Source of the DNA: Blepharisma japonicum
Lineage: Eukaryota; Ciliophora; Heterotrichea; Heterotrichida; Blepharismidae
Length of the DNA: 64,000 nt
NCBI GenBank assembly: GCA_949751835.1
Contig: CATKHK010000014.1
Span: 310,001-374,000, forward strand
Reading direction: 5' to 3'
Shown: in pieces, positions 10,723 through 59,886 of the stretch
How positions within the stretch are numbered: the stretch's first letter is position 1
Layout of the letters: each line of letters begins with the position of its first letter
Notes under the pieces: model-generated
The model's input: only the letters and a program-made list of their open reading frames with translations
Database searches by the model: none
What the model was told of the DNA's origin: nothing
Made by a program: the position numbers and the translations under genes

Positions 10723-11532
10723 ATGGATTATCCAATTTGTACTGAAATTCTTCCTGGCCTTTTCATAGGAGAATATAGGATTGCTCAAGATATGTCACTT
10801 CTTTTCAGTAATCATATAACACACGTCATTATTGCAGCTGAAGGGCTTGAGCAGCTTTATCCTAATCAAATCCATTATAAATATCTTCCGATACTTGACA
10901 CTCTAGACCAAGACATCTACCAATACTTCGAAGAATCCATCGAATTTATAGAAAATGCAATTTCACAAGGTGGAAAAGTTCTAGTTCATTGGTAATTTTT
11001 ATCTAGTCTTAGTGGAATTTCTCGAAGTGCTGCTATAGTTACAGCCTATGTGATAAAACACAAAAATATTAAAACTGCAGAAGCTTTGCAATTTATACAG
11101 TCTTTATATCCTTTAGCATGCCCAAACGATTCATTTATGAATCAACTTGTAAGATTTGAAACATTTTTAGGGCTGCTTGCAGAAGTGCCTTATTCTTGCA
11201 AAATTTGCCATACACAACTTTTCACCAAAGCAGATTTAGAGGAGCACACATCGCAAACATCCAAAAAATTCAAAAAAGGCAGCAAAGGAAATGATGTTTG
11301 CACTTCAATATTTGTAAGGAAAATGGACTGAATGCAAAACACTGAAGAAATTGATGGAAAGATTGAGTGCCCGCGTTGCATGAATAAGTTAGGAGAGTTT
11401 AATTGGTCTGGAAGACAATGCTCGTGTGGAAGATTTGTGGCGCCAGCATTTCAAGTGCATAATTCAGCAGTTGAGGCGAAGAGATCAAATTTAGATCATT
11501 ATATTGCGAGCCCAAAGGTTTGGAGTAAATAA
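10723..11532 (+). CDS. DUSP12: dual-specificity phosphatase 12 / YVH1
   Basis: 264 residues after removing one 15-nt intron (10992-11006) that splits the catalytic Cys codon; splicing restores HCLSGISRS, the HCxxGxSRS phosphatase loop, with Cys90 as nucleophile and Arg96 binding phosphate. The C-terminal half has the DUSP12 zinc-binding module: CKICHTQLF, then CPRCMNKLGEFNWSGRQCSC and GRFVAPAFQVHNSAVE. TGA at 11329-11331 is Trp. In yeast and animals YVH1/DUSP12 uses this zinc domain in late 60S maturation, exchanging MRT4 for the P-stalk protein P0. Together with NOG2 upstream this is a second 60S-assembly factor in the window, probably a coincidence of gene order. The stop is TAA. Confidence 0.93.
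10992..11006 (+). other. 15-nt spliceosomal intron (DUSP12)
   Basis: GTAATTTTTATCTAG. Removal joins TG|T (Cys90) and rebuilds the HCxxGxSRS motif; retention gives a TAA. Confidence 0.95.
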
Positions 11533-11585
11533 TTTCCTTAAATCAATAAGAATAAGCATTAGAATTATAATTGAAAATATAAACT

Positions 11586-12704
11586 TTAAGTATTTTTCAT
11601 CAACATTTTTTGTATTGAAAGTTTTGATTTTCCTTTCGTTTCAACCAAATCTTTCTGGAAATATATGACAGCTAAAAAACATACGCCTGAATAAATGAAA
11701 AAAACTGTTGAAATCCCTAATAAACTTGATAGAGAAGGAAATAAAAATACGACCATAATATTGAAAGTCCAATTAGAACTCACGCATGCACTCATAGGCT
11801 TTGCATCTAAAATTTCTCCACAGTACACTCATGTTATTGGCCCAGCAGATGCTTCATAGAATATCAAAAATAAAGCAATGAAAACTATTGGTGGGGCAAC
11901 TCCTGCATCAAAAATCCCTGAAAAAAGTCCCATAAGCAATGAGCATACAGCCATTCCTATATTTCCAAAGCATAATAGCGGCTTTCTCCCAAGTCTATCA
12001 ACAATTAATAACGCAATAACCACTCCTATCATACTTATAAGCTTAATTGCAAGCGTTAAGATTCTTGCAAAAAACTCACCTTCTCCAAATGAACTGAAAA
12101 TTCCAGTCGAATAGAATTGAATTGCATTGATGCCGCATCATTGCTGGAAAAAGTGTAGCATAATTCCTAATCTCATTACTTTGGAATGCTCCCTTTTGCA
12201 TGTGAAAAGTTCCCAATAAGTAGGTTCTGAGTTTTTATTAGTGCTTGGCAATGATTTATTGTATTTTAAGCTGTTAAAAATTTCTTTCGCACTATTTTTG
12301 GAATAAATTTCTTCTAAAGACTCTAATGCTTCCTTATGTTTATTGAATTTTAGCAGCCAATAGGGTGTTTCATGACGATAACAAGCAAAAAATAGGATCA
12401 ATTGCAGTAATGCAAAGAGCCCTTGCAAAGAAAGCATGAACAATCACCATCAATTAAATGAGTTTTTATCGAAGTCCTCTGTTGGTAATAGTAATGCGAT
12501 TGCAAATGCAAAAAGAACTCCTAGATTTATCATGATTTGAACTATGCTTCCAATTTTCCCACTTATTTTTGTAGGTGAGTATTCACTGATATATACAGGA
12601 CAAATCACTGAAAAAATCCCAGAAGTAAATCCAGTAAAGAATCTTCCAACCCCAAGGGTTGTTGTAGATGGAAAAATAAAAATTAAGGAGAATGTAGAAA
12701 ACTT
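11586..12704 (-). pseudogene. sugar-porter MFS transporter lacking its N-terminus
   Basis: The frame, with several TGA read as Trp, encodes most of a sugar-porter (SLC2-like) MFS protein. It has the end of TM3 with GVGRFFTGFTSG, then PVYISEYSP, the central loop, QQ-W-CGINAIQFYSTGIF of TM7, DRLGRKP between TM8 and TM9, and a KDLVETKGKS tail resembling the family's C-terminal signature. What is missing is TM1, TM2 and half of TM3 (about 85 residues). The frame meets TAA at 12705-12707 with no ATG before it, and no 15-nt intron restores an upstream exon. The 321 bp to the next gene show no coding trace. Either a 5'-truncated gene copy or a local rearrangement; an internal Met could only give a protein too short to transport. 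Confidence 0.75.
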
Positions 12705-15461: not shown

Positions 15462-15650
15462 TGTAAGTAATTTTTTATCATTATATATTTTATAAATAGT
15501 TTCTATTATATACAATAATAACTTCACTCTGTATAAATATGAATTTTATGCTGTGATAAGCATATATGTTCAAAATCTTTATTTAATCTCATAATTTGCT
15601 ATTATACAGATATTTTCATAAAAATGATATGTCTAATGCAATAATTAATC

Positions 15651-16553
15651 ATGGAGGCTGAAAATAAAACATTTACAGTTGAAGAGTCTGAAGATGACCC
15701 TAGCCCGCCAAATGACTTGCATGATACAGAAATTGAGTCACTTCGTCAGGATCAAAATGAATGCAACGAAAAAGCTCAAGAAAACCTAGAAAATTTGCAA
15801 AAACTTGACTCAGATGTCAAAGAAGCGATAAGTGCGATATCAAATGAAGAAAGTTATCATACCCGAGAGTCATTTGGGCCATGCCAATCTCAAGATCACG
15901 AAGCTGAAAAGCTCCTAGAAGACTTGCAGACTAATATTGATAGAAGAGACGTACTAAAGCAGCAGTTGAGATTAATACAAGATCGCCATCACAGCGAAGT
16001 AAAACAATGAGAAATCATAAGTGATCGAACTAGAGAAGAAATTGAAATCTTATTAAGCCGTAACCAAGAGCTTAAAGAGTGTATTGCATCAAAAGATAGC
16101 GATTTAGAGCGCCTACGAGAAGATTTAAATGATTTAAGATTAGAGATTAAAGAGCATAAGCAGCAAGAAACCCACTTTAAAAATTTGGTACAGAAAATTG
16201 AGGAGCAAATTGTAAATAATAATTAGATTGTTAAAGACCAGACTATTCAAGAGCAAGCAAATACTATTGAAGAATTATTGAAAGGGAAAACTGTGAAACA
16301 GCCAAGGACTTCCAAAGGATCGACATCTCCACTTCCCAAAGGGCCAGGGAAATATCAATCTGACTACATATTGAAAAGTAAACTGAGACAGGCACATAAA
16401 AAAAACACATCTCCTGCTGTAGCAGGAGATATTTATAGTACCCCTGAAAGACCGAAAAGTCCCATGTATAGTATTCTTGGAAGCAAGTCTCCTAAGCTGA
16501 GGCCTCAACCAATGAAGCAAGATGCAACTATTGTTTTGACTAAAATGGGTTAG
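15651..16553 (+). CDS. unknown coiled-coil protein
   Basis: 295 residues once the 15-nt intron at 16212-16226 is removed (EEQI joined to IVKDQTIQEQANTIEELL, phase 0) and TGA at 16008-16010 is read as Trp. Residues about 20-210 are Glu/Gln/Lys/Leu-rich with heptad spacing and probably form a long coiled coil. The last 80 residues are basic and rich in Ser-Pro (TSPLPKGPGKY, ERPKSPMYS, GSKSPKLRPQP), suggesting phosphorylation and perhaps microtubule binding. Within that tail the DNA holds a perfect 10-bp hairpin (16409-16430). Family not recognised. It ends in TAG, 46 bp from the convergent next gene. Confidence 0.8.
16212..16226 (+). other. 15-nt spliceosomal intron
   Basis: GTAAATAATAATTAG, phase 0. 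Retention would place TAG in frame; removal keeps the coiled-coil heptads in register. Confidence 0.9.
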
Positions 16554-16599
16554 ATAATAATAGAAGAAATTTTCAGCATAATTTATAATGCATATTTAA

Positions 16600-17742: not shown

Positions 17743-17920
17743 TATAATTATAAAATGGAGTTAAAGAGGGAAAGATATCTTTGTATGCCAGCATATAAAT
17801 GTTGATTAAGTTAAAATGATAATTATAATTGGTTCTGTAAATTGAACAAAATATAAATAGTGGGAGAGAAACATCTTTAATTATTTTTATTAATATTTAT
17901 TTATTCGGCGATTAAAAATC

Positions 17921-19025: not shown

Positions 19026-22000
19026 TTATGGTTGGCTATATAAGCTGTGAGAACCTGGGACAACAGTCGAAAATAGCTGCAATTTTTGCATTTTAAGTTT
19101 CTCTGAGTTGAGAAAAGGTCAGTAATAAATAAAGTACATTAAGACAGAAATACTAGAGTAGATAATGGTAACTATTAAAATCATATCAAGTTGGTGGGTG
19201 ATTTTATTTTTTGAATCTCTATTTGATAATATAAAATCGGTTGCGGCTTCGTTTTCGATAGATTTTATATATTCCTTATAGTTATTTATATTGAGGGCTA
19301 GTTTTCCTGATGTCGCAAAATTATAGGATTCAAAAATTATAATTTCGATTGCAACTACAGTGCCGTATTTGGAAATACTTTCAGTTGAGTTCGTATGCTC
19401 ATAAAGTCTTACTTTCAGTTCATCTGATATCAAATCCTGCATAGAATTATCAGAAATTTTTTCATTTACTTGGGCTAATTGATCTGCTGCATCGTAAACC
19501 TCGCTTAATAAATTTTGAAAATCATAATTAGACTCAAAATTTTCGGTTAAAATTGGAGTGTGGCATTCCTTTGCAAAAAAACTCATTCTCGTAGTCAATA
19601 TAAGTCTTAAACCAAAACTCTGCAATAATGTTGGACGATTATCCATGTATACTTTGCAGTCGCTATAAAGCCAAAATTCAATAATCATATAAAAAGCAAA
19701 TGAAAGAGATAAAAAAACTGATAATGTTTTGTAAAAACGCAAATAAATTCTTGTATTGATTTTTTTTATATTATTTTTTGACTTATTTTGAATTTTTATA
19801 TCTTCTAAATTCAAGTCATCATTATTATGAATTAATAAAAGCCTATCAATGCAAGCTTGTACAAATTCAACATATGCTAAATGAGATTCTCTTTTTACTG
19901 CGTTTCATGCTGAATTATTTTTATTATTTAAAGACCAGATATATCATACTAGGCCAGCTAAGCAGAGCATTAGGATACCGATTGAAATGAATGTCATGAC
20001 ACTAACCCATACACCTTGTTCATAAATTCTATTTGACTCACATAAAATTAGAGCATGCAATGCAGATATTGTATATTGATAAGTAAAGGTCAAGCTATTT
20101 ATTTGCAGAAATTTTAGCTCATCAATGTAAGGCTCATTTTTAGAAACTTTTTCTAAGAATTTATTTGTCTGAATAAGAATTACATAAGATATAAATAAAG
20201 AGATCACATCATATAAATTGTTTTTAACTAGATATGGGTTTGTGCTTATCATTCATACTGGAATTTCCGACTCAGTGACAATTTCTGAAGCAGGGCAATA
20301 GTCCCAATCGGATAACTCATCTAGCATTTTATTTTGTATTACCAATAATCCTCCTAAAATTAAATTTAAATCTTCAATTTCATAGGTTGTGCTCGCATTT
20401 CTTTGTGCATGAAATTCGAATGAAAGTAATGCATCAGCGATAGAGCTAATTTCGTATATCATTTGGCCTCCATTTTCAAATATTTGGATAGAAGCTGTTT
20501 GTTCAACTTCTTTATAAATATAAATTAAGATACCAATATTTGTTCCAGCAATGGCAATGATCTATTTTAAATTTACCATAATAAATAAAATTTTTTGAAA
20601 AATATTTATAGCTTTTTCATACTCTTGAATGACTCTTCTGACAAAGTCTACTTAAATTTTACGTTTTGTACTGATAGATTGGCTGCTAGTTTGTGGATTT
20701 GAATCCACTCTTTCATCATTTGGGCTATTTTTATCATCAATTTTGTTAATATTAATCTCTTCCAATTGCATTTTTGGCTCTGTTTTGAACAGAGGTTCTT
20801 CAAGTTCAAAGCAAATACTATTTTGTGTTTCATTAATCCTTAAAGTATTACGTTCCTTTCTGGAATCTTCGTATCCTTCAGACGAGCTATCTTCTTTATC
20901 AGATTCACAATTTTCTGGGTGATAGCCAGATTTCCATAATTCAATTTCTTCAGGATCTTCTATTAATAAAATTTCAGAGAACTTCAACCTTTTCCATTGT
21001 CTTACTAAATAGACCATAAAAATTTCTTTTTTCTTCAATATAACACTGATAATTTTAAAAGGGGGAATTTTTGATAAATCTAAATGAGGAACAAGATTTG
21101 ATACAAATTGGCCTTTTACTGATGATAAGTTATATCCCAAATTTACAGCAAATTCTTGGGTGTGATTGAAAATGAATCCTTCCCCAGATAATAACGCCAT
21201 CTCTCGATGATATTTTTTAGACCGAAGCGACAATAAAATGTAGGGAGAATCTTTAAAAGCAGCCAGCCTTCCAAACATATTGCACTCTACTAAATAGCCC
21301 TTTTGGGACATCATAAACAAATCCATTGGGAGACCAATATTGACGTTGTCACAATTTTCCAGAAATCTTTTGAGATTATCGTTATGATTTTTGTTAAAAG
21401 GCTCAGGGATGAAATCTGAAAGATAACATTCAAGCGCATCTGTAATAGTTGTCTCTAAGAGTTTAGCAGCTTTTTCGTTAATATAGAAAATTGATCCAAA
21501 TGACTTTGAGTTTAAAGATATTAAAATCATGCCATTGTCTTCATCATACATAGCCAGCCTTTTTTCCTCGTCCAGAAACGGATCTATTGACTTTACTGTT
21601 TCTTTTCTTCTCCTCATCAAGTTTGCTTGATCTGAATTTTGCATAATAGTTTGAAGAAAAGATGCATAAAGTTCATAGGCGTAGGCATGCTTGCAATTCA
21701 AAGTTATCTTTTTATACAAAAAATCAAGGCTATTGATGCTGTCAGATAAAATTGAAATTTTTCTGTATAAAGCATTGATATTTGGGCTTCTAGAAGTTAT
21801 TTCATTTACAGTTCCAAAAAGAATGTAGCAAAGCCTTTCATCTCTAATTTTTATTTTATTCAGATCTAATAAATACTCTAAAAATTTCAATTCTTGAGGT
21901 GTGCTATTTTTATTTTTATCAAAATCTTGGTAAATTCTTCATTCTTGGATTTCTCCTTCTAGACTCCAACTATATTCCTTTATTTTCGACAATTTCACTC

Positions 22001-25200: not shown

Positions 25201-25205
25201 TATCA

Positions 25206-26533: not shown

Positions 26534-26935
26534 TTATATGTCTCTTTTATTATCTGTTCTTTCTTCGTGAATTCTTTGTACAAATGCATGCTGAGCATCA
26601 TTGTATTTGTGTTTTAATTCATCGAGAGCTTGCCGTCAAGATACTAAAAGTTGTCCTTGGATAAGTGGGTCTTTTTCTTCACGAGCTGCCTCAAATTCTG
26701 CTCTAATAGATGTCTTAATAATTTTAGATCTAGCTATGAATTACCAAGGAGTCCCGTCAGTATGGCATCATGTTAAGCAGCTAGCAAATTTTAAGTATTC
26801 TCTAAAGAGCAGTAAAGCTTCTTTATTAGGAGGAGGTTTGTTAGATCTCAAAAGGTTTTCCACAGGCTTTTCCAGGATTTTGTCCAAAATTCCCATTTCT
26901 TTTATTATATTTTCATTTAAGTAAATCTTGCTCAT
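26534..26935 (-). CDS. LYR-motif mitochondrial protein (Complex1_LYR family)
   Basis: This gene is invisible as one frame because it has a 15-nt intron (26730-26744) and two TGA Trp codons (SCLT-W-CH, LVS-W-RQ). Spliced, it gives 128 residues. The LYR signature is present as LLLFREYLKF (LFR in place of LYR), followed after the intron by IIKTSIRAEFEAAREEKDP, the Arg and Asp-Pro pattern of the family, and a last helix ALDELKHKYNDA. LYR proteins dock on mitochondrial acyl carrier protein and serve as subunits or assembly factors of respiratory complexes and Fe-S synthesis. Which member cannot be decided. Start at ATG 26933-26935; stop TAA 26534-26536. Confidence 0.82.
26730..26744 (-). other. 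15-nt spliceosomal intron (LYR gene)
   Basis: Minus-strand GTAATTCATAGCTAG, phase 2. Removal creates the codon TG|A (Trp) between TP and SKIIKTSIRAEF; retention gives TAG. Confidence 0.9.
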
Positions 26936-28266: not shown

Positions 28267-29460
28267 TTAATTAACTCTGGGTGTCAGAGATCTCAATTGG
28301 GTACATAGCTGGTTTATGAACTCAGTTATTGCTTTAGCTTCGCCTTTTGGTCTTAATGACGCATAAGCATAAGCTGAAGCCAAGTATACATGGACGTCTA
28401 CTTTACAGAAATGAAAATACAGATCTAGTGAATTATACATCATTTCACTCACCCTATGGTTTGCCTTTATAATTGTAGAACTTTCACTTTGCAATGCAGA
28501 ATATAATGTAGCTTCAGTTTCATTTGGAAGCTCTTCAGGTTTTCAATTATGCTTGAAAACGGGTACAAACTTGTCAGGAATTGTTGATGTTAGTGAACTA
28601 TTTTTCCTTTTGCATCTATACCCTCCTTCTTGCCAATTTAATAAAACTTCATTTTCTCTTTTATCTAATAATAAAGCAATATAATGAATTTTCAGCTCTG
28701 CACATTTGGATTGAACTTTCCGTCTGCATATAATTTACCTGTTATAATATTCTTCGTTTTCCAATAAATTACCATCAGAAAGCGTTCTTTCGAAGTATAA
28801 AGTTGCCTTACCAATCAGTCCATGGAGCATTTTGACAAGATATCTATAGAGAAGATTATAATCATCAAAAGAATTACTATGAGAAATTGGAGAATATTTT
28901 TTGTCGCGAAATATTTTTTCCCATTGCTGGATGCTTGAGTGAGCTTTGGTTAATGAAATAATAGTCTGCAAAAAATTAAATCTTGATAAGCTTGTAAAAG
29001 CCATGACTAAGTTTTTGATAGAAGTCAGCTCGCATACCATTGTTTCTTGAAAAGGTCGTAAATCGTAATGATCACATTCACTGGTTTCTTTCAAATAGCT
29101 ATCGCATAAAAATGTAATATTTTCTGGGATCTGATAATCTGATTGAGAAAGAAGCTTGTAAATTTGACAAGTTTTCAGTTGGATTTGGGTGAGGTGGAGA
29201 ATTTCAATAAAGAAGGAATCATCTGAAGTGGTCAATCCAGCTCTAACTTCTTCATAAATGTCTCTTATTGCATGATCTCGATTCGGATCTTGAAGAGATG
29301 CCGGAGTGAAATTGTAATATTGCATTTCGAATACAATTAAGCCTTGCAAGCTTTTCATCATCTTGTGAGAGCATTGATAACTATTTAGTAGACCATAACA
29401 TTCTTCATAATTTTGCTCTGCAAGTTGGCAAGTAAATCTATCTTTAAATAATTCATCCAT
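28267..29460 (-). CDS. KICS2: KICSTOR subunit 2 (KICS2/C12orf66)-like protein
   Basis: 392 residues once the 15-nt intron at 28724-28738 is removed (NR joined to RKVQSKCAELKIHYIALLLD). The product aligns by eye along its length with human KICS2: RDHAIRDIYEEV with KDSIRTIYTSLH; FNFLQTIISLTKAHSSIQQW then EKIFRDK (residues 162-187) with [20 protein letters not shown] then GQIFEKQ; and the end, YFHFCKVDVHVYLASAYAYA then ITEFINQLCTQLR, with YFLTRPEPHFTIVIIFE then FISFLNEVSLALK. In animals KICSTOR tethers GATOR1 to lysosomes and restrains TORC1 when amino acids are scarce. The divergent neighbour is an S6K/SGK-like kinase 143 bp away. TGA at one site is Trp. Identity is from remembered sequence, not a search. 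Confidence 0.75.
28724..28738 (-). other. 15-nt spliceosomal intron (KICS2-like gene)
   Basis: Minus-strand GTAAATTATATGCAG, phase 2. Removal restores AG|A (Arg) and continues into the conserved C-terminal half; retention gives TAA. Confidence 0.92.
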
Positions 29461-29603: not shown

Positions 29604-30689
29604 ATGGAATTTGAAACACAAAGAAATTGCTCAGTCAACGACTTCGAGCTGTTAAAAGTAATTGGAAAAGGCCGATTTGGGGAAGTTCTTTTAGTAAAGA
29701 AAAAAATAACAGAAGAATTATTTGCGATGAAAATTCTAAAAAAAAAATACATCGCAGAATGCAGACAAATCGAGCATACAAGAACAGAACGAAAAATTCT
29801 TGCAAGTGTCGACCATCCTTATATTGTCAAATTCTTCTATGCTTTTCAAAGTAACGAAAGGCTTTATTTAATTCTTGAATATTGCTCAGGCGGTGAATTA
29901 TTTTTCCACCTCAACCGAGCTCGTCGTTTTGATGAGCAAAGAGTTAAGTTTTATAGTGCTTGCCTTGTCCTTGCCATAGAACATTTACACAGCAAAAATA
30001 TCATTTATAGAGAGTAATTGTTATGCAGCTTGAAGCCTGAAAACGTTTTAATTGATGAAGATGGGTTCCCTAAAATCACTGATTTCGGTTTGTCAAAAGA
30101 AAATTGCACTGATGGAAGATCTGCAAGAAGCTTCTGCGGAACTGCTGAGTATTTGGCACCAGAAGTGATAATTAAGCAAGGGTATGGAAAAGCTGTTGAT
30201 TGGTGGTCACTTGGTTGCATAATATATGAAATGCTGATTGGGCTACCTCCATTTTATCATGAGAACAAAAAGTACGTGTATATGAAAATCCTTTCAGAAG
30301 AACCGCCTTTGCATGATTTTTTGTCACTTCCAGTAAAGAATTTGCTGACAGGCTTGCTTCATAAAGATCCGAATCGAAGATTGGGAGCAAGAGGGGCCGA
30401 AGAAATCAAAACGAATACTTGGTTTTTTGATATAGATTGGGCTGCTTTAGAAACAAAAACAATTATGCCTTCTTTTGTTCCTAGTATTTCTGATCCTGCT
30501 AATAGTCGATATTTCAGTGAAGAATTCACAAGCTCAGCTATAAGTTCTGCATCACCAAATCAATTATCGCCAAGAAATTCAAGTCCAACTTATGACGGAT
30601 TTTCATATTCCAGTAGTCCTTCAGAATCTAAATGCATTTTTGACAATGAATTCACAATAAGAGAGGAGGAAGGACAGCCAGTTGTTTAA
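29604..30689 (+). CDS. AGC-family protein kinase (S6K/SGK/Akt-like)
   Basis: 356 residues after removing the intron at 30014-30028, which splits the catalytic Asp codon. Visible: Gly loop GKGRFGEV (21-28), Lys43 in AMK, YRDLKPEN with Asp137, DFG at Asp155, and activation loop SFCGTAEYLAPE (Ser171 at the PDK1 site position). After the kinase fold comes an AGC tail with SFVPSISDP and a hydrophobic motif YDGFSYS, like FLGFTY of S6K and FPQFSYS of Akt. No PH domain precedes the kinase: residues 1-13 run straight into FELLKVIG. The ATG at 29604 is chosen because the upstream extension is not kinase-like. Probably PDK1- and TORC-regulated, by family. Confidence 0.9.
30014..30028 (+). other. 15-nt spliceosomal intron (AGC kinase)
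   Basis: GTAATTGTTATGCAG, phase 2. Removal joins GA|C, the catalytic Asp of YRDLKPEN; retention gives TAA. Confidence 0.97.
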
Positions 30690-33390: not shown

Positions 33391-34323
33391 ATGGAGGCCC
33401 TTTTCACAAAAGAAGAAATAAACAAGTTCATATCTGGCGGTGCCGCAGGAGCGGTAGCTAAATGTGTTATAGCTCCACTAGATCGTGTCAAGGTTCTATT
33501 CCAAGCTACTACACGAAGATTTACTGTCAATAATGCCTTTCTTGAAATGATTAGAATTTCTAGAGAGGAAGGCATTAGAGCATTTTGGAAAGGAAATTAT
33601 GCGATGATGCTTCGAATAATTCCTTATTCCGCAATAGTAATTTCTAATTAGCAATTCGCAACATATGACTACTACAAAAAACAAATTTTTGGAGCTGACA
33701 GAAACTCCTCAAAAACAAAATTAATGCTCTTTAATTTCATGCCAGGTGCTTTGGCAGGTGCCACTGCAGTCTTACTGACTTATCCCTTCGAAGTCACAAG
33801 AACTCGTCTTGCCATCCAAACGACTTCACAAGTTTATAGAGGAGTTTCACATGCTTTTTGGACTATTGGCAAGGCTGAAGGCATGAAAGGACTTTTTAAT
33901 GGGTTTTACCCTACCATTTGTGGGATTGCCATATACAGTGGGGTTTCCTTTTCTTTATATTTTACTTCCAAAGAAGTAATTGGCCACAGAGGGAATTTAG
34001 AGCATTTTCTTTTTGGCGCTGCTGCAGGAATAATTGGCCAGCTTTCTGCATATCCATTTGATGTGGTCAGAAAGCGTATGCAAGCTCATGGCTTTATAGA
34101 AAAAGTCTCAAGCTTTAGAGCAACTCACAATGAGGAAGAGCTTAAAAGCATGCTGAGCTATTGGAAAATGATAGTCAGGGGAGAAGGACTTCGAGGACTT
34201 TTCAAAGGATTCTCTATGAATATCGTCAAGTCTCCTATAGCCTCAGGCATTGTACATACTACAAATGAGGTGATGAATCATTATTTCGAAGACTACTCAG
34301 ACAAAGAGAAATCATACTTATAA
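33391..34323 (+). CDS. mitochondrial carrier, SLC25A42 (CoA carrier)-like
   Basis: 305 residues after removing the intron at 33637-33651 (IPYSAI joined to QFATYDYYKKQIF). Three mitochondrial-carrier repeats with PX[D/E]XX[R/K] signatures: APLDRVKVLFQ, YPFEVTRTRLA and YPFDVVRKRMQ, each followed by the GL/GF-x-x-x-Y pattern (WKGNYAMMLRIIPYSAIQF, FNGFYPTICGIAIYSGVSF). The first repeat is closest to SLC25A42/SLC25A16-type CoA and adenine-nucleotide carriers (PLDR-K-FQ, WRGN-AT-RV-PY-AIQF). It would sit in the mitochondrial inner membrane exchanging CoA-type cofactors for nucleotides. Complete at both ends; the stop TAA lies 26 bp from that of the convergent VMA12 gene. Confidence 0.85.
33637..33651 (+). 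other. 15-nt spliceosomal intron (mitochondrial carrier)
   Basis: GTAATTTCTAATTAG, phase 0. Removal rebuilds the conserved PYSAIQFATYD; retention gives TAG. Confidence 0.96.
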
Positions 34324-36144: not shown

Positions 36145-38427
36145 TTAAACTGCTGGCTTTGCTCCTACATCATCAGCAGATTTCATTATTTTTCCAGTGC
36201 TTAAAACTTCAGAAAAATCTTTGGTAAGAGATTGCACTACTAGTCCTCCAACTCCGACCATAGAAGAATGTTTAGTCTTGCTTTTTTCTTCCCACATCAG
36301 CTGATTTTGAGTTAATTGATCTAAAACTGTTTTATTTATAAGATCTGATTTCAGGAATTGGCATCATACTTCGAATAGCGGAATACAAATATTCTTTATA
36401 AACCCGGCCTGACTTTTAGGTATATCAGCGTTTTCTCTATCACAGTACATGGAGATTGGCTGATTTCGAGATCTTTCCACGTCTCCTTGCTTAAAAAATT
36501 CTTCACAAACAAGTCTTGTCCATTTTTCGTGCAATGCTGGAATTTTGGCACTATGCCCGATGTCAGCACATTTTAACCCCATGGATAGTACCAAAATTTT
36601 GTCATCTTGGACTTCCATATTTAAATCAGAGAAATTTAAACATCTTGTCCTGAATCTCCCTAGAATTTCGAAGTGTCTAGACATGTCTGTCTCCAAGACC
36701 ATTTCAATTATGAGTTTCCTTGCCTTTATCCAGTCATCTGAGCTCAGATGTTCGAAAATATTGCAGCCGTGCTTTCCCATAATACTAAAAATTTCAGAAC
36801 AGTGCATGTTTTCTAATACTGAGTTATCGTTATATTTCAAAGCTATTTCATGACGGTTGTTCACTAGGAATCTGTTTGTTACACCTGGATGGCCAACATC
36901 GTGGCCTGTTGCAGCAACAATTGAAGCCAACGTATCAATTGTGTTTAGATTTTTCAAAAAGTCACTTTGGAAATAAAAATACAGTAAAGTGTGCAGGACG
37001 TCAGCACCATGGCATGCATTGTGGTAAGGGTTATTTTGATAAGTCTAAATAAACATTACTTTTTCCACTGTTTGGAAAAATTTATCTGAAGTCTCTTCAC
37101 TAATGCTGAAGGATTCCCCTAATCCTCATTTCTGTAATAAATATTTGGCGACTATGTGGATGCTATGTCCAGTTGCATCATATATAAACCACACGTCAAA
37201 ATTCCAATTTTTGCCGACTGAATAAAGAACCCCTTCAAGCTCAGCAACTCCATAATTGCTAAATGGGAATGGAGGTTCTTTTTCGTCAATATCTGACATA
37301 GTTGTTCTTCTTACTCCTCTGTTTATTACAGTGGTGCTTTCATGGGTCACTTCCATGAAATTTTCTTTGATAAACGCTTTGTCCTGTTCATCTATATTTG
37401 AGTCCGCCTCAATTTTCACCTCCATCAAAAATGACCCATGGCCAATTCTTTTCTTGACTCTTTCCAATGCATATTGAGCCCTTTTCAGCCTATCTTTTAC
37501 ATCATTAAACATGATCACTGAATGTGCATACTTTATATCCTGCCTGATATCATCACAAATATGAACAAGTACTTCAATTTCTGTTTTTATTTTAACTTTA
37601 CTGTTGTTTTCTTGCTCGTTTTCTTTTTTTTCAAATGTTTTTTCTTCTCTCGTTTTCCTCCAAAAAAGCTGCCGAGTTCTAAAATCTGTTTGCTGTGATT
37701 CAAATATTTGCAAAACAAGGAAAACAAATAAAATCGAAAACTCGAATAGGGTCGAATAGACAGATAAAGGAGAATAGCCTAAATTTAGCCCAAGGAATAA
37801 AACTAGCGAAAGTACACACAGGAGCGTAATATAATAAAAGCATTCTGCTAATAGATTCCTCATCATAACTATAAAGCAAGAAATAATTGCAATTGTAGGG
37901 AATCTTGACTCCTTATAGTCTGTGTCCAGAATTTCACTCAAGACTCGATCATCACCAATTATCAGATAGATAATAGTGACAATACCTAGCACAAAATAAT
38001 AATGCCGATTTCTCATAAGAATTCAATGACTTTTCAAGGTGGACAGCAAAAGCATATAGGCGAAGGTCAGAAGGCAAGCACAGCAGCTGATATGGTAGAA
38101 TAATTGCTGATCTGAGTATTTTCCGTCAGAATGCAAGAGCAAAGAAAATGTAAGGATTACGATTAGATACAAGGTATAGAATAAGTAGAAGAAGAGAAGA
38201 GTATTTTTGAAATCTGGAGACACTGAAAGGCTATCGTTGCTATGGCAGTAGATGGTTTTTAAATATTTGCTGTTGAGCTCTTTGTCACGAAATGTTAAGA
38301 GATTGGGGCTTATAGGCAAATGGCTGTTTTCGTGCTCTTCATGCTCCAGAACGATGTAAGTTAAGGATTTGCTTTGTTTGGAAATTCCTTGATCATCAAA
38401 CTTGTTAGTTTTCGTGTGCTGTATCAT
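36145..38427 (-). CDS. membrane-bound cyclic-nucleotide phosphodiesterase (class I)
   Basis: 755 residues after removing the intron at 37045-37059. An N-terminal domain of about six transmembrane helices (residues 70-230) precedes a linker and a class I PDE catalytic domain. The metal-binding set is complete: NPYHNACHGADVLHT (about 461-475), HDVGHPG (His504, Asp505) and ADIGHSA (Asp617), with substrate-site strings WTRLVCEEFFKQGD and KSQAGFI. Splicing is needed to join EK to TYQNNPYHNACHG. It hydrolyses cAMP and/or cGMP; specificity cannot be read safely. Polytopic PDEs of this type are known from ciliates and apicomplexans, tying membrane sensing to cyclic-nucleotide signalling. Several TGA are Trp. 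Confidence 0.92.
37045..37059 (-). other. 15-nt spliceosomal intron (PDE)
   Basis: Minus-strand GTAATGTTTATTTAG, phase 0. Removal rebuilds the entry to the catalytic domain (EK|TYQNNPYHN); retention gives TAG. Confidence 0.96.
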
Positions 38428-38796: not shown

Positions 38797-40902
38797 TTAT
38801 GTCAAAGTCTCAATGACATTTTCATCACAAACGCACAATTCTGGGTTATATTCCATGCTTATTGAAACATCCTCACACTTCCCTTCATAAGAATCAGCTC
38901 GATAAATGTTTATGATCTAAATTGATTTTACCCTTGCAAATTTTTTTACCCCACTTTCAAGTACAGGAAACGCTTTTAAGCCTTTACCTTCTTCTATTGA
39001 TAAGTCATCATCTTCTGATATATAAGCCCAAAACTCAAAAGTCACCCCCTTGCTTTCATTCACTGTAAATTGTACTTTCATCAGCAAATTCCCATTCAAA
39101 GTTCTACTATAAATAGCGTATTTCAATTTATTTAAAGAAAGCTTTTTGCATAAGAATCCTTTTCTGTGGTCATTTGAGATATAGGTGTTCAAATTTATTT
39201 CATCCAAAGCTTCAGTAACTATTCTAAGTATTAGTTTTCTTCACCCTTCATCAATTTCTTGTGCTAAATCAAGCTGCTTCATCACGTTGCTTCCACAGTA
39301 TCACGGAGAAATCTTTGCATCTTTGCATGTCCTTGTGTTAGGGACTTCTTCAGTAATTAAATCATAATAATTTTGGCTGCGCTTGCTTTCTAAATTATAT
39401 TGAAGCTCTGCCAGTTTAATCGTTAATCTTCTTAAATCAGGCTTAGTTGTTAATCTAAAAGTGTTGTGTTCCAATATAGAATATGAGTTTTCAATTGAAT
39501 CCAAATATTTTCTGCTTGATATAAAGAAAAATGCTGGGAGTCTATGCTCTTGGGTAGCATTTGTATTACTTTTGTAATTAATATATCTCATCCCATGATC
39601 ACCTGCTAATAAAATCACGACTTCATGACTTTCACTAAAAATTTCTGTCAAATTTTTAATGTAATTTCTTAAGTCTTCGTCTAATGTGCTTGCATGTTGG
39701 CCCGTGCTCTCATGAGCTGCTGTGAAATGATTGTAAATTCATAAATTGGACCGCAAATAAATATGAGCAAAATTGATGGAATATTCCATTAAATATCAGT
39801 GCGACATATGAGGACCAATACATCTTAGAGAGTTTTTATGTCCTTTGTGAGAAGAATAATTTGTAAACTTGTGTGCTGCGCAGTAAAATGGCTGTACAAC
39901 ACTGTCTGCATCTGGCTGGCTGCCAATTGAACTTAATAAGCCATATGGGCACCCTTCATAGCCGAAAAGAGTCATAAATCCTAGTTCTTTTAACTTTCTT
40001 CATATTGCATACTTCCCAAATCTGCTTAAATTGGAATTTTCTTTGATTTTTTTTCCAAGACCTCAATAGTTCGCTTGATTATCAGAAGTTTTCGCCCCTA
40101 TTATATTATGAAATTTAAAGTCAAATACTTTCCAATCCTGAGAGTTTTCATATTTATTCAGCAATTCAACTGTTTTTGGTAATTTTCTGTAGAAATGATT
40201 CCTAGAAAAGCTGTCTAGCGTCAGCATCGCTATTAAAATAGGTTTTTTATTTGTACCCGAGGCAGTCTGCAAATCATCAATTTTTTTCTTTGCTTCCAAA
40301 TAAGCTGCTAAATTTAATTTAGGCTTCATAGCAAACATATCAAAATCAGTTGAGTTTTTCTTACAAGTTGCCATTGCAAACTCATGATTGTTTCACAGCG
40401 GCCGACTAAAATTATGGTATTGCTGGATTTCTCAATATGGTTGCGAGTATTTTGGATTAGTAAAGTAATTATAAAAAGGCGGTCCCAGAATATACGTCCC
40501 TTCTTCACATTCAAGGCTAAATGAATTCCCAATTGTGTTGAAATTAAGTTTATAATTTGTATCATTATAAATATCTTCACATCTTGGATATTGATAAGGG
40601 GGAAATAAGCTACTTGCCTCCGTTTTTGTATATCCAAATGAAGATGGAATGGCAGGGATTAGAGAAGTCATGCTTTTCATAAGATCTGTGTCATCTATTG
40701 AAAAATTGTGAGGAACGAATTTCTTTTTATATTCATCATTAGAAAGCGCAGTAGAAAATATTGTAAAATCTTCTGACAAAAGATGGGATTTTTCTTCAAT
40801 ATCAGGGTCTTGGGAATGGAAAAAGACTTTTGATACTGAAATATAACTTGCAAAAAGGAGGATAGCCAGAATAACAGCTTGAGACAGCTGCAATATTTTC
40901 AT
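38797..40902 (-). CDS. DUF229-family protein (alkaline phosphatase superfamily), type II membrane
   Basis: 696 residues after removing the intron at 38917-38931. An N-terminal signal-anchor (AVILAILLFASYISVS) is followed by a luminal domain with DUF229/sulfatase-like landmarks: TLDSFSRNHFYRKLPKT (nucleophile region), GYEGCPYGLLSSIG, HESTGQHASTLDEDL (metal-binding His) and LLAGDHGMRY (Asp-His pair). The exon after the intron adds 40 residues ending in a Cys-rich NPELCVCDENV, a typical end of this family. Family members are extracellular or Golgi proteins of unsettled substrate, probably phospho- or sulfo-esters. Many N-glycosylation sites. It lies 22 bp upstream of the AGL stop in tandem. Several TGA are Trp. 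Confidence 0.85.
38917..38931 (-). other. 15-nt spliceosomal intron (DUF229 gene)
   Basis: Minus-strand GTAAAATCAATTTAG, phase 0. Removal joins KFAR to IINIYRADSYEGKCED and adds the Cys-rich end; retention gives TAG. Confidence 0.9.
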
Positions 40903-52748: not shown

Positions 52749-55700
52749 TTAATTATTTTTTGCTCTATAAAATGGGATTTTTTCTGAAAGTTCTCTTTCT
52801 TGAATTTTCCCAGATGATATCGATCCAATATTCCTGACATCTGCCATCTCATACTCTAATCTCCTATTTGCCCTCTTCATTTTCCGATAAAAATAAAGAG
52901 AACCCATAAGTGAAGCTAAGAGCAGAGCACATACAATCCAGAAAATATAAATTCCAACTCCTTGCCCTTCAAATTCTGACTCAATATAAATTTCAGTAGG
53001 GTCATAAGACACATATTTTGAATATATGCGCTCTTGTGAAGGATTTATAGCTAAAATATTAATAAAGCCACGCTTTTCTTTTATAATGAACCTTATTTCA
53101 TTTTTTCCTGTAACAGTTCCATAATGTAGAGCTTTTGAAAACTTGTGTGAGGTCTGTATATCACAAGTGGTTTCAATTAAATTTGGGGAAACTTTGGAGA
53201 AATAGATGTGATACTCAATATTATTAGGATTTTCAATTGGCGTTCCATCTTGATATTCTATGGGATCAAAGGATGCTACTACAAGATATTTAGTAAGCCT
53301 TTCCCACTTGATCAAGCCATTATTTCCTGGCACAATATGCTTTGGAGCTATTTGGCCTTGCTTTGTAAATACAGTCGAGAGCTGATAGTTTTGTGTGCTA
53401 TCTGTATTTTTATTCATAGCAGAAACTGTTATGAAATATCTCCCCTTTGCGTTATTTATCATCCCAATTATTTTTCCATCCATTTTTCTTTCAACAATTA
53501 TTTCTGGATCTTCATCGCTTGCCATAGTCCAGTTTGATGAGATTTCTAATTTTAAATCCTCAGCACAAGGAATTAAAAATACTTCAAGTCTTCCCAATTC
53601 ATTTAAATTAACTTCATATCTTTTGCTTAAAATTCCTAGGTCTATGGAATCATAAATTTCAGAGCCTACTGCCAGCATGGTCGGAATTATGCTTTCTGAA
53701 CAATAAAATTCAAAATCGCCGCTTTCTTCTTTGGTAAATTTATCTGATGCAGAGCCAGATATCATGAAATTTAGCTTCCCAGGAATACCAGTTTCACGGA
53801 AAATCATTGATAAAGAATTAAAAGCAAAATCATAATTATTTTTTTTGTACTTGAAGCTCGCTTGTTCTTCTGAAGGAGGAGGCCTAACTTTATCATAACG
53901 TTGAAAGTCTGCATAAACTAGAGGGAAAAGATCTTTTGAAAAAGAAGTTAATTGGCAATGAACTGGGCCTGAGAAATTACGAGAAATGCCTGACTCGAAA
54001 TCAAAGTAAATATGGTCAAATGGATCATACTGAAGCCTATAAACCATAGGCCTGCCATCCATTAACCTTGCATAAGTATTTCTTAAATGAGCGGTAATTG
54101 TATAGATTCCGTCTTCTACGCCTTTTACATAAATATAGAAAGTCCCAATCTTGAAATTTTTGTCATTTGAGCGAATTCTTAGATGATCAATTTTATCATG
54201 AGAAAGCGCAGTCCAATTGAAATTTTTATCACTTGTATTTTTCATAGTGCCAACATAAATGTCTGTATCACCCATATATGAAGTTATTGAGAAGTCAACA
54301 TCTGATGAAGATGAAACGAGGAAAGTATATAACTGAATCTCACCTTTTTGGCAAGAATTTTTATATGGGATGCCATTTGGCAGAATCACAGCATCTTGAC
54401 TATTAGTAACAGTTATAGTGAATGATGAAGAAGAATTTTGATTTGTGCTCACTTCTATAATAAAGACACAATTAATACAGAAATCTGGATCATTTTTCGA
54501 GATTTGTATGCTATATTTATCTGGGCTTGAATTTGAGGACCAAATATAGTTTTTGAGTTTATCTATTACAGTGCCAACATCATCATTCCCCAAGTATGTG
54601 TACACAAGAATTGATGGATTTCCAAAGTATGGAGCTAAATTGATAGAAATAGCACTTTTTACTTCGCTATTAAATAAATAATAAGTTTTCGATCCTTTAT
54701 TTAGGCTCCCATATTGAGGGGTTCCACTGTGCAGCCATGTAAGATTTTGAGATCCACTATGAATAATAATTGAAAAAGATGAGGCAGTTTCTCCATAGAT
54801 TGCTATAAAGAATGTCCCAATCATGCCTTTTCTTAATTTAGGGTCGTTTGATGAAATTCTTAAAATGCTTTCTTGATTTTTTTTTGCAATTCAATCATAA
54901 ACACTCATAGTCGGCATAGCTCCTCTAGATACATACATATCTGGGAATTCTTCTGAAAATGAAGTTAATGTTATTGTCAGCTCAGAAACATTATTACTGC
55001 AATAAAATGAAAAGATTTTGTAGCTGTCCTTCTCAACAAAGCCATAAGTAGGAGTATTTTCAATTAAAGGTGCTATATCATCTTGCTGAGTTATTATAGA
55101 ATACTTGCATGTATCAGAGAAACAATTGACAGTAATAATGGCAATGCAGTTTGTATTGTTGCAGGTTTTGATATATTGGCTTGGAATCAATGAAATTTCA
55201 TCAGTCATTATTGAAGATAAAGACTGAAAAGTGCTGTTTGATCTTGATGGCATTGGCCACTGAGAGACATCCGTATCAAATGACCCGGTATTATAGATAT
55301 TAGCAAATATATCAGCATCACCTATAGAAGATTGGATAGTAATTTTTAAAGGCTTCGAGGAATCAAAAATGACATAATAATAATCATCTTCAGTTTTATT
55401 CAAGTAGCTCGTCTCAGGGCTTGACAGCATCAGCTGCCTAACAGCTGAATTTTTTGTATGGACCCTTATTGTATATCTTGACGAAAGTGATCCATAAACT
55501 CCAATATAAATAGAGCAATAAGTTTGATTTCCATGCTGATAATCATCGGAAAGATTAGGACATAATCTTTTCAAATCATTATTCCATGATAACGTTACAA
55601 TTTCACTGCCATAATATTCTGACTCAAAATTCTTGTTTTCTTTTGTAGGCTTTTTATTATTCTCATCAGCTGAAATATACAAATCAGGATCTCCAGACAT

Positions 55701-57914
55701 CGCATTTAGAGAAACTGTTACATCTTCATGCGATAAATAAATAGGAAAAGTGTAATATTTGTACTGCTTTTCTTTAACTTCACCATCAATGGGGATATTT
55801 TCTGTTATTAAAACTGGTGAGTTTTCTGTTGTAAATAGAATTGAATAAACTGGCGATTCGCTATTAGGAATTTCAGTCGCCATTACTAGAACATAATAAG
55901 TTGATGACATAAGATAGTTTTCATCGTTTTTATCGATTGATATAGAAGATATTTGGTTTGAAGTGCTTCAGCCACTTTTTCAGTCGTAATGTGTCTCGAT
56001 ATCCCTTCAATCTGTAATTGGCCCTTTATTTTTGATGTAAATTGTATATTTCCCGGTAATTGGAGTTAAATAAATTCCTAATGTTTCTTTAGTTGTATTT
56101 GAAAAAGATGTGGTGAAATAATAAATACAATAATCACGACTTGACAAATTATTTCTTTGTGGTATACCAGGCACAAGTTGGATAAAAGATTCAGTATTTT
56201 TAATATCTTCTTTAACTAAAATTGTAAAAGTTGACGATATTTTGGAATAGACAGCAATATGATACGTCCCAGATAAGTCGTCACCATCCTCACTTCCTTT
56301 TTTATAGTTAATTTGATCAACTTCATTCTTCTTTTTATTCGAAGATTTTTCATATTCAAAAATGGTTGGTTTTGACTGTTTGGATAAATATAAATCTGGA
56401 TTGCCAGAAATTGGGGTTAAAGTAATTTTTAATTCCATTACATTTGGATTAACAACTTCATATTTAAAATATTTATATCTCTTGCTAAGAATTGATGACT
56501 GTAAAGGCTGCCCATCTAATAATAAAGTTTCTGAATCAATAAAATTGGCAATCAAACTAAAATAATTATTTCCTAATGTGCTCCCAAGGACTCCAATAAG
56601 ATATTTTGTTGGTATTTCTGAAACATTTTCAGATGAAATATCAATAACTTGGAAACTCCCACTGTGCTTGGATTTTATAAGAGATTTATCATTGTTATTG
56701 ATTTGCTCAAGAGTTATTTCGCATGATTCCTTAATACAAGGCTTTGCATATAAATCCGCACTTCCTACTGTAGGTGTCAAATGAATAGAGAAATCAGCAT
56801 GTTGATCACTCAAAAATTCAATATAAAATAAACTGATTTTTTGGTATTCGACTGCTCCAATATTAGGAATCCCCATAGTTAATTTAGTGATGCTGTTTTG
56901 GTTCATTGATGCAGAAAGAGAATATGAAGAGTGGATTGCCGAACAAATGCCAATATAATAAAACCCAATAGGCTGATTCTTGCTTTCTCTATCAGCTTTA
57001 GTAATCTTCAGCTCATGAGTATTTAAAGACTTCATAAAATAGTCATACTCTACTGTGCTTGGCTTTTTTCCAACTTTAACAAAAATATCAGGAAGCCCAT
57101 AAAATGGAGTCAGATTGATTACGAGTGCTTCTTCTCCATGATCTACAAAAATTGAATAATAATTGCATTGATTTTCTCCTTCTAGTGTTCCCAAAACAGA
57201 TACAGAAGCTCTCAGTTGCGTCACAGAATCTTTCCCTACACTTGAAATTATGGTATATTCAGTGCTATTTAAAGCAACGATCGCTATTTTATATATTGCT
57301 CCAACTTTGAAATTTTCAACAAAAAAGCTTTTTCCCATATGAGAATTATCATCAATTCCCAGGGTATTCTCAGGTCCAGGCTCTATATCTCCTTCGCTCA
57401 CAAACATATCAAATTTTCCAAATCCAGCTGAAGCAGTTATTTCAACCTCTTTAAATTCTTCCCTTGTTTCAAATTTATAAAGGACCTGATACCCAGCTTC
57501 TAGATAATTAGTCTGTGGTATTCCAGGAACCAAATTAATTTCTTTAGTATAGGAAAGAGTTATGACATATCTACAGAAATTTTTGCAGGAAACCAAGATA
57601 AAATAATCAGAATTGCTTGATAATTGTTTATCTGGGATCACTAAAGACTCAGTTCCACTAGTGGCACTTTCCCAATCATAGTCTGACTTTGTGGGCTTTT
57701 TTCCTTTTTTGACATAAATATCGGGATCAGATCAGTCAGAAAAAGTCGTCAACACAATACTAAGATTTTTTGATGTTTTCGCACCTATATGGAATTGGTA
57801 AAAAAGCTCTCCACCATTAGGATTTTGTATATGTCCTTCAATAGACTGGCCATCTTCTAATACTTGTTGAGCATCCAATAAAGCTAAAAAGGCTAAAATC
57901 CACAGCATCACCAT
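52749..57914 (-). CDS. giant surface protein with PPC-like repeats
   Basis: 1721 residues in one frame through several TGA Trp codons. Signal peptide (MVMLWILAFLALLDA), then at least ten repeats of about 140-150 residues resembling bacterial-type pre-peptidase C-terminal (PPC) beta-sandwiches. Each has a YY/YF-x-F box (KYFKYEV, YKYYTFPIY, QLYTFLV), a strand such as ITLTPISGNPDLYLSKQSKP, and a WxSxSG-like or YTI/YFI strand end. The GxPDLYxSxxxxP core recurs as GLPDIFVKVGKKP, GDPDLYISADENNKKP and EFPDMYVSRGAMP. One membrane helix near residue 1650 (IYIFWIVCALLLASLMGSLY) and a basic cytosolic tail end it. Likely a plasma-membrane adhesion or coat protein. The divergent gene's ATG is 37 bp away. 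Confidence 0.85.
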
Positions 57915-57951
57915 TTACAATTATTTCAACGAATAAGAATTTAATTTAATT

Positions 57952-59886
57952 ATGGAAGCTTTTAAACGTGATACAACTGCTGATGATTTACAATCTTTTG
58001 ATCCTCAAGACTGGCCAAATATTCCACGTCCTATTATCATTACATTTGCCTTAATCAGAAAAGCGCTTTTAAATCATGAAAATGGCATTTCAAAACTAAA
58101 ACAATCAATTCATCATGTGGATGTTAAAGGAGAAACTCATTATAATGAGCTTGTAAAAACCATTTCAAATACAAATGATATGATAGTAAGCTCAGAAGAA
58201 ATTTGCAAAGATTTTACAGAAGAAAAATACGAAAAAGTGAAAAAGAAAATTCAGAAACTTCAAGGAAAAATTCAAAAAGAAAATGAAAATAGAGCAAAAT
58301 CGTTGGAAGATTATAAGTGAAGCTTGAATGAGCAGTTAGGAAATATTAATAAAAGAATTGATGCACTGCCTACTTTCGCGATTTTAGATGAACTAATTGA
58401 AGAGATGAAGGAAAAATTAAAAGAGAAATTAATTACTGAAGTAAGAGATACGCTATTGAACCCAGAAATCTATATGATGTCACAGAGACTAAGGCTTGTA
58501 AACTCGTAAGAGATATTTAGAGACTTAGAAAATGACATTGAATTAGCTAATAAAAAAATCATCACTGAAACCAAAATTTTAGATGAAAAAATTGAAAGAA
58601 TCAACTTCATTTTGAAAGGGAATAGCACTGAGATTGAAAAGAAAATTGAAAGTAATGGTAATGCTTTTAAAAATGAAATAAAGAAAATTAAAGATTTTGA
58701 TGAGCATCTAAAATCGCTGTATCATTCTCAAGATCAGCAAATATCAAAGCTATGCACAGCCTTAGGTGAAAAAATAAAAAAAATCAAAATTAGTATTAAA
58801 GAATGGCAAGATAAACTTGAAGAAGTGAAAAACTCTATTCCTCAGGCGCATATAATGCCTTCTCCTATTCCTCTGTCATCAATTCAAAATATTCCAGGCG
58901 TTGAAATTTCATCTTACTCTCCTACTGTATCTTTACAGCAAAACAACTTTAATCAGAAAGAATTCCAAGAGCAAATGGGACAAGAAGCCAAGCCTTTTCA
59001 AGAATTTCAACCTACTGAGCAATATCAAGATGAAGCTTTCTCTCCAAAATCTTTAAGCTTTAAGCCTTCACAAGATAGTATCCTTGATTTTCAAATCCCA
59101 GTTCATCCAACTTTTAATATTCCAATTGAAGAAATAACAGAAAAATTGAAAGATGAAATTAGAGAAGAAATTTCTGAACTAAAAATAGAAATTTATGAGC
59201 ACATAAAAACTCATGATGATAAATTAGCAAAAGATATAACGGATTCTATTAAGCCGATAGAAAACAGGATCAATAACACCAAAGGTGTATTAGAAAATTA
59301 TGTAAAAGAATTAAGAGATAAACTAGCGTGACTTCCTATCAGCCTAAACCAATTAGAAGGAATGAATCCGACTGAGGCAAGAATTTTTACACTAGAAGCT
59401 CGCTTGCGTTCAGAAGAAAATTCCCGAATTCAAGGCTTCAACCAAATTTTAAAGGTCCTTGACAACTCAAAACCACAGCTTCCTCCTTCAAGCCGCGCTA
59501 GCCCTGAGCCAACTCACAGACGAGAAGTTTCCACTCCTCAAATTCCTTCAGGAAGAGTTTCCAACCGACCTCGTAGTAAAATCTACGAACGTCGTGCAAC
59601 TCCAGGCGGTATGTGCACTTCTGACATGTGAAAAAAGCCATCCGAGCACAAAAAATCACTAAATGAATCAGATAGTATCCATGGCTCCAAAATCGCTACA
59701 CACTCCCCCTTAGAAAATTTCCTTTCAGACGACAACAATGCTGAAATTTTCCACAGATACCAAGCCCACCGAAAATTCAAAGAAATTCCTAAATCCTGGG
59801 ACCTTGACACATTTTCTGCTCAAAAAGACATGAGCCCTGTCCCAAGCAAGGACGAAATTACCTTAAGATCTAAGCTTTCAAACTAA
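57952..59886 (+). CDS. unknown coiled-coil protein with Pro/Gln-rich centre
   Basis: 639 residues after removing the intron at 58506-58520 and reading TGA (58318-58320, 59329-59331, 59629-59631) as Trp. Start: MEAFKRDTTADDLQSFDPQD, then IPRPIIITFALIRKALLNHE. Coiled coil runs about 45-295 (heptads in EKYEKVKKKIQKLQGKIQ and ELIEEMKEKLKEKLITEV), followed by a Gln/Pro/Phe-rich flexible stretch (about 300-390), a second coiled coil (about 395-470), and a basic Arg/Ser-Pro-rich tail (SRASPEPTHRREVST, NRPRSKIYERRATPGG). This resembles cytoskeletal or basal-body scaffold proteins; no family recognised. It shares a 37-bp divergent promoter with the PPC protein. Confidence 0.8.
58506..58520 (+). other. 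15-nt spliceosomal intron
   Basis: GTAAGAGATATTTAG, phase 2. Removal joins TC|A (Ser) and keeps the coiled coil in register (RLVNS|DLENDIE); retention gives TAA. Confidence 0.9.

Follow-up and report, generated by a model that had tools for sequence, protein, structure and literature searches.

A near-invariant adenosine in probable 15-nucleotide introns of a Blepharisma-like genome

Can 15 nucleotides (nt) make up a spliceosomal intron, and if so, what keeps one adenosine within it at the same place? The question is raised by a 64,000-nt piece of ciliate DNA, C14:310001-374000 in an assembly of 45.2 megabases and 224 contigs. We call the whole of this stretch the window and number positions from its first base. 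An earlier note, made from the letters alone, had described twelve introns here, placed by protein continuity, each 15 nt long, with GTAA at the start, an A at position 10 and a pyrimidine followed by AG at the end. In our opinion the twelve sites are almost certainly genuine introns of extremely small size. The A at position 10 (A10) is close to invariant, and GTAA and YAG are strong preferences.

Candidate introns in the window

The G+C content of the window is 29-37% per block of 4 kilobases (kb). With TGA read as tryptophan, it holds 48 stop-to-stop frames of at least 150 residues, the longest of 1721 residues, versus 40 such frames, the longest of 903 residues, under the standard code. 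Tiny introns together with TGA as tryptophan fit what is described for Blepharisma (PMC9942806). As a part of the explanation that we favour below, it is very probable that the genome is a Blepharisma-like macronuclear one in which TGA encodes tryptophan.

The pattern GTAAN5ANNYAG occurs 13 times in the window versus 3.62 expected, and none of 100 shuffles reached 13. The pattern itself sets GTAA, A10 and YAG, and these matches are therefore no test of those bases. As the earlier note printed it, GTAA-N5-A-N3-YAG, the formula is 16 nt long and has one N too many; N2 is correct. We rejected the printed form, which matches the window 3 times versus 3.64 expected, at the chance level. The twelve sites had not been listed individually, and we took them to be the 13 matches minus 20169-20183, because that match alone lacks an in-frame stop and the remaining set spans 10992 to 58520, with T at position 9 in 10/12, the same value as had been reported. 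The matches are given below; paired numbers are open codons on the two sides of the junction, and "scan match" marks sites found again by the scan described in the next section.

10992..11006, plus strand: 15-nt intron, phase 2, GTAATTTTTATCTAG; dual-specificity phosphatase with a YVH1-like C-terminus; open frames 93/174 codons
16212..16226, plus strand: 15-nt intron, phase 0, GTAAATAATAATTAG; open frames 189/108 codons; scan match
20169..20183, minus strand: candidate thirteenth intron, phase 0, GTAATTCTTATTCAG; motif match without an in-frame stop
20562..20576, minus strand: 15-nt intron, phase 0, GTAAATTTAAAATAG; together with 20648 links two long frames via a 71-nt exon
20648..20662, minus strand: 15-nt intron, phase 1, GTAAAATTTAAGTAG; frame open for 863 codons upstream; retention brings a TAA into frame
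26730..26744, minus strand: 15-nt intron, phase 2, GTAATTCATAGCTAG; LYR-family protein; open frames 98/64 codons
28724..28738, minus strand: 15-nt intron, phase 2, GTAAATTATATGCAG; KICSTOR2/C12orf66-like protein; open frames 267/151 codons; scan match
30014..30028, plus strand: 15-nt intron, phase 2, GTAATTGTTATGCAG; protein kinase; open frames 188/219 codons
33637..33651, plus strand: 15-nt intron, phase 0, GTAATTTCTAATTAG; mitochondrial carrier; open frames 86/223 codons
35452..35466, plus strand: 15-nt intron, phase 1, GTAAGTCATAATCAG; open frames 165/116 codons; retention brings a TAA into frame
37045..37059, minus strand: 15-nt intron, phase 0, GTAATGTTTATTTAG; cyclic-nucleotide phosphodiesterase; open frames 456/299 codons
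38917..38931, minus strand: 15-nt intron, phase 0, GTAAAATCAATTTAG; DUF229 protein, near the 3' end; open frames 660/39 codons; scan match
58506..58520, plus strand: 15-nt intron, phase 2, GTAAGAGATATTTAG; open frames 189/454 codons; scan match

Each match was removed in all three phases, and the open frames were compared with the 15 nt removed and retained. For 12 of the 13, removal in one phase unites open frames and retention puts a stop in frame (a TAG, for instance, at 16212 and at 38917). Hence the claim that these introns follow from protein continuity holds for all twelve sites, with the detail that at 20648 and 20562 the frames join only if both introns are removed. The thirteenth match is a different case: its frame is open whether spliced or retained, therefore frame continuity neither shows nor excludes an intron there.

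Homology backs five of the junctions. Pfam domains cross four of them, and in all four the score drops when the 15 nt are retained: DSPc at 10992 (107.3 bits spliced versus 89.1 retained), Complex1_LYR at 26730 (25.9 versus 20.3), the kinase domain at 30014 (258.9 versus 242.4) and Mito_carr at 33637 (215.7 versus 203). Such a drop is a modest test, because any insert lowers the score. The alignment to DUSP10 is, in addition, gapless near the junction at 10992. The fifth junction, 37045, lies inside the region aligned to phosphodiesterases of known structure, and the Pfam match begins 7 residues past it. Two of these introns interrupt codons for catalytic residues, namely Cys in the phosphatase motif HCxxGxSR (10992) and Asp in the YRD loop of the kinase (30014).

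For the remaining seven of the twelve introns the basis is open-frame continuity alone. Homology to KICSTOR2/C12orf66 stops 11 residues short of the junction at 28724, and the DUF229 match stops before the one at 38917. The Pfam scan found no domain in the gene with intron 35452; in the gene with 20169, 20562 and 20648 its single match is weak and lies off the junctions, and no homology reaches those of 20562 and 20648. The positions, the length, the restoration of the frame and the homology at five junctions are directly established, and from them we infer splicing.

Length and base pattern beyond the fixed motif

Since the pattern search presupposes A10, the constancy of this base has to be judged on sites that were chosen without it. 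We scanned both strands of 264 kb (the window plus C1:1-200000, from a second contig) for GT..AG stretches whose removal unites two coding-like frames, with no requirement on the inner bases. A strict filter further required that, on each flank, the correct frame outscore the other five. At 15 nt it left 27 GT-AG candidates, whereas five control end pairs gave 2, 2, 3, 3 and 0. Among lengths from 10 to 30 only 15 nt was clearly enriched. Eight of the twelve window introns were found again in this way.

Among the 27 strict candidates, A10 is present in 25, T9 in 22, A4 in 24 and T13 in 20, with C13 and A13 in 3 each. Only A10 is near-invariant within positions 5-12, where A at any other position occurs in at most 12 of the 27. 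The scan demands an in-frame stop; a TAG end in phase 0 and a GTAA start in phase 2 provide one, and position 10 is therefore unselected in such cases (25/27 candidates are of phase 0 or 2). The two candidates that lack A10 are 58498-58512, which overlaps the real intron 58506 and whose removal likewise restores the frame, and C1:41045, whose coding scores are negative on either flank. The picture of fixed ends that the earlier note had drawn needs softening: GTAA and YAG stand as strong preferences, and the wider sample contains GTAC, GTAT and AAG ends.

Could these sites be no introns at all, that is, chance GT..AG 15-mers, stops that are read through or retained germline DNA? Being a multiple of three, 15 nt leave the frame intact on retention, and it follows that many of the sites may differ from coding sequence by just one stop codon, which gives the idea some appeal. 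Against it stand the GT-AG excess at 15 nt (27 versus 0-3 in the controls) and the restoration of HCxxGxSR, of YRD and of the phosphodiesterase frame upon removal. We find this explanation hardly credible.

With the consensus ends, retention brings an in-frame stop into phase-0 introns (TAG) and phase-2 introns (TAA). We nevertheless rejected the idea that such a stop is obligatory, as phase-1 and CAG cases can lack one (for example C1:19168 and C1:174153). A coding-score scan with too strict thresholds gave no result on this sample. Frame-shifting lengths were too noisy in the scan, single 16-nt introns being indistinguishable from noise there.

For other lengths and spacings we counted patterns of the type GTAA...TA...TAG over the whole genome, on forward plus reverse strand. 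The baseline was taken from 940 other spacings on the 264 kb and scaled to the genome (standard errors of the means 23-30). The background varies with the frame relation between GTAA and TAG, because both hold stop codons. A control with reversed patterns is listed as well; it was not used as the baseline because its stop codons and base order differ.

15 nt, T9A10 (GTAAN4TANNTAG): 3168 found, baseline about 269 (about 12-fold), reversed pattern 1100
15 nt, T8A9: 702 found, baseline about 355 (about 2-fold), reversed pattern 1201
15 nt, T10A11: 334 found, baseline about 379 (no excess), reversed pattern 1069
16 nt, T10A11: 519 found, baseline about 351 (about 1.5-fold), reversed pattern 1273
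16 nt, T9A10: 519 found, baseline about 491, reversed pattern 1378
14 nt, T8A9: 339 found, baseline about 325, reversed pattern 996
17 nt, T11A12: 366 found, baseline about 325, reversed pattern 1132

The T8A9 class of 15 nt also has A at position 10, in 82 of the first 100 listed of its 702 members. The excess for 16 nt with A at 11 is about 168, compared with about 2900 for 15 nt T9A10, which makes it about 5% of the summed excess; the literature gives 5-7% for 16-nt introns, Stentor included. It is probable that 16-nt introns exist in this genome. For introns of this length the counts favour A at 11, although the reversed-pattern control is higher than the count itself; the distance to AG would then still be 5, so that A appears to be tied to the 3' end. 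We did not accept a 16-nt class with A10, despite three C1 candidates and a raw count of 519, as the frame-class baseline of about 491 leaves no clear excess; a flat first baseline of about 350 would have falsely suggested such a class. Classes of 14 and 17 nt were not accepted either, with 339 and 366 against about 325 and no enrichment in the scan. G directly before TA is rare, occurring in 1 of the 45 first-listed 16-nt T10A11 members and in 2 of the 100 first-listed 15-mers.

The branch nucleotide and competing explanations

Our machinery search covered U1, U2, U5, U6 and Cwc25. With Rfam models of the small nuclear RNAs we found three copies of U2, one U1 above the cut-off and one below it, as well as U6 and U5. 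In the aligned copies the contact sequences are canonical: ACUUACCUG in U1, GUAGUA in 3/3 copies of U2, ACAGAGA in U6 and the loop UUUU in U5. Provided that translation begins at the first ATG in its frame, the Cwc25 orthologue starts with MGLK, so that its residues 2-4 are G-L-K and it lacks the Gly-Gly-Gly plug, which is present in human CCDC49 (PMC9505925). Judged by the U12-type consensus, the 12 introns, all of which start with GTAA, contain no long U12-type branch motif.

Two side observations belong here. The third U2 gene (L011:1501-1693) is divergent, its first loop and the surroundings of the AGCUUGCU stem-loop being altered with GUAGUA intact. The second U1-like copy (L013:1501-1661) lies under the family cut-off at 61.8 bits and is unaligned.

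The explanation that we favour is that these are ordinary U2-type heterotrich introns, nearly all of 15 nt with a few per cent of 16 nt, which the spliceosome recognises mainly by geometry; we hold it to be very probably correct. Under this proposal G1-U2-A3-A4 would pair first with U1 and afterwards with U6, U2 would position A10 as the branch nucleotide through weak pairing, and exon ligation would use the AG 5 nt past A10, leaving a lariat loop of 10 nt and a tail of 5 nt. In an intron longer by one base, the additional base would mostly sit upstream of the A, on the side of the 5' splice site; therefore the distance from A to AG appears rigid, and it may act as a mechanical constraint. The earlier note had called A10 the obvious branch point. 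Judged from sequence, it is indeed the best candidate, given its presence in 25/27 strict candidates and in 82 of 100 listed members of the T8A9 class, yet its role as the branch is something that we infer.

A number of results count against this explanation, and we gather them here. The strict filter was adopted after the loose set had been seen. The loose filter gives 48 candidates at 15 nt versus 8-23 in seven control end pairs, and 12 of the 48 lack A10 (A10 is found in 36/48, compared with 37/110 pooled over the controls). Among 28 candidates of other lengths divisible by three, A stands at position 10 in 14, some of them sharing donors of real introns, and at five before the end in just 6. 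The requirement for an in-frame stop means that phase 1 is under-sampled by the scan. In the genome-wide counts, 15 nt T9A10 is the only class to beat the reversed-pattern control; the excesses of 16 nt A11 and 15 nt T8A9 have the extrapolated 264-kb spacing baseline as their sole basis, because the reversed control exceeds both. Finally, pairing of U2 with positions 5-9 and 11 around a bulged A10 scores 2.03 of 6 versus 1.99 for shuffled sequences (79 distinct introns; 702 of 2000 shuffles match or exceed it), and some slid U2 registers outscore the canonical one.

This last result also bears on the suggestion, made in the earlier note, that such introns leave little room for the usual U1, U2 and U2AF contacts. 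For the branch it has something to it, since U2 pairing there is no better than shuffled. As a general statement it finds less support: the contact sequences of U1, U2, U5 and U6 are canonical, and U2AF1, U2AF2 and SF1 are in the list of spliceosomal proteins for Stentor (PMC9505925).

The pairing data invite another explanation, in which T9-A10 forms the conserved core that pairs with U2 (T9, as U, with A35 and A10 with U34) and position 11, mostly U, bulges out as the branch. Of five bulge positions, this one gives the best pairing with U2 GUAGUA, 3.45 of 6 versus 2.03 for A10, because T9 and A10 then fall on -2 and -1 of UACUAAC, the yeast-type branch sequence. Two of these 3.45 pairs stem, however, from bases fixed by the pattern. 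Position 11 is U in 67 and A in 21 of the first 100 listed of the 3168 genomic matches, and a mainly U branch would, to our knowledge, be exceptional. Moreover, in the T8-A9 class, which keeps A at 10, a bulged A10 corresponds to the ordinary UAA register. We therefore consider a branch at position 11 improbable.

It may also be asked whether A10 marks the acceptor rather than the branch, as a part of a composite signal UANNYAG read by U2AF or SF1, with branching elsewhere or at variable places. That A appears to follow the 3' end when the intron is 16 nt long would suit such a signal, and so would the orthologues of U2AF1, U2AF2 and SF1 listed for Stentor. The difficulty is that elsewhere within positions 5-12 A never exceeds 12/27 candidates; a U or a variable nucleotide would then have to serve as the branch. 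To us this seems less probable still than a branch at position 11.

Returning to recognition by geometry, one may go further and propose a ruler: the branch A has to lie at a fixed 5 nt from the end of the intron and 9-10 nt from its start, no complementarity to U2 is required, and the exon-ligation factors that ordinarily serve a remote 3' splice site have become dispensable. For Stentor, a table based on BLAST alone gives Slu7 and Prp18 as not found (PMC9505925), and in yeast they are dispensable when the distance between the branch and the 3' site is short (PMC10711555). A fixed distance of 5 nt would explain their absence in Stentor; in the sections of PMC9505925 covered here no such link is drawn. 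In this strict form we regard the proposal as rather doubtful, if worth keeping in mind.

Upstream exons are A-rich from -4 to -2 (17, 20 and 15 of 29 introns; raw counts without a coding background), and just 10/29 of these exons end in G. The U5 loop UUUU could pair with such exons. These 29 introns are the 12 of the window and 17 of C1:1-200000; as non-A10 candidates were left out of the pool, its A10 in 29/29 is no evidence for A10.

Stentor, other ciliates and further observations

The earlier note described the strict register as its own observation. It had already been printed for Stentor coeruleus by Nuadthaisong 2022 (PMC9505925), where 8173 of 8806 introns are 15 nt long (92.81%) and 633 are 16 nt (7.19%), the branch A is at position 10 in 8005/8173 15-mers and at 11 in 442/633 16-mers, and a lariat of 10-11 nt with a 5-nt tail is predicted. 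According to PMC10946202, the conserved A was proposed as the branch point by Slabodnick 2017. Hence the earlier note, working on a related genus, correctly found anew a basic pattern that is already published. In the texts that we consulted, a minority of those that the literature searches listed, we found no printed account of the A10 register for Blepharisma; supplements and logos in figures were outside this search.

Shared with Stentor, as reported in PMC9505925, are the 15-nt length, GT-AG ends, A10, richness in A+T, the U1, U2 and U6 contacts, and a Cwc25 without the Gly-Gly-Gly plug. The differences are that the genus is another one, that TGA encodes tryptophan here, and that we derived the register by counting in DNA and by frame continuity, whereas that of Stentor was read from an annotated genome. 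Blepharisma stoltei, probably of the same genus as our DNA, has mainly 15 and 16 base-pair introns, 66% AT and UGA as tryptophan (Singh 2023, PMC9942806); its 41 megabases in 64 telomere-to-telomere sequences differ from the assembly used here. In the other ciliates compared, the introns are longer or less uniform. The karyorelict Loxodes magnus has very short introns, defined by RNA sequencing, with a variable length, a mode of 17 base pairs and a negligible share below 16 (PMC11441545). Those of Nyctotherus are longer and variable, 21-29 nt with GTA...TAG, and PMC2633312 reports that a branch motif was not detected; Paramecium introns, as cited there, are longer and variable too, at 20-33 nt.

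The main value of the present analysis is the replication of the register in a second heterotrich. A second case in which A is apparently tied to the 3' end, with U2 complementarity not above shuffled, narrows down which constraint is rigid. Human test genes suffer a profound disturbance of splicing if the donor lies less than 50 nt from the branch, the shortest productive distance seen being 46 nt (PMC11291888), and Smu1/RED is essential when the distance between the 5' splice site and the branch is short (PMC6692369). Introns with a 10-nt loop would be a natural test of the minimal size of a spliceosomal substrate.

Several minor observations concern the surrounding DNA. A run of 100 N at 9962-10061 of the window is presumably a scaffold gap. 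Rfam and transfer RNA scans of the window gave nothing above threshold, and of four telomere-like repeats neither the window nor C1:1-200000 held three or more units in a row. The frame of 1721 residues lies at 52752-57914 on the minus strand of the window; its sole Pfam match is a PPC domain at 35 bits, with no single stretch above the cut-off. In C1, at 56314, 56786, 58516 and 58988, two intron sequences are repeated 2202 bases apart, which suggests a tandem gene duplication that has retained both introns.

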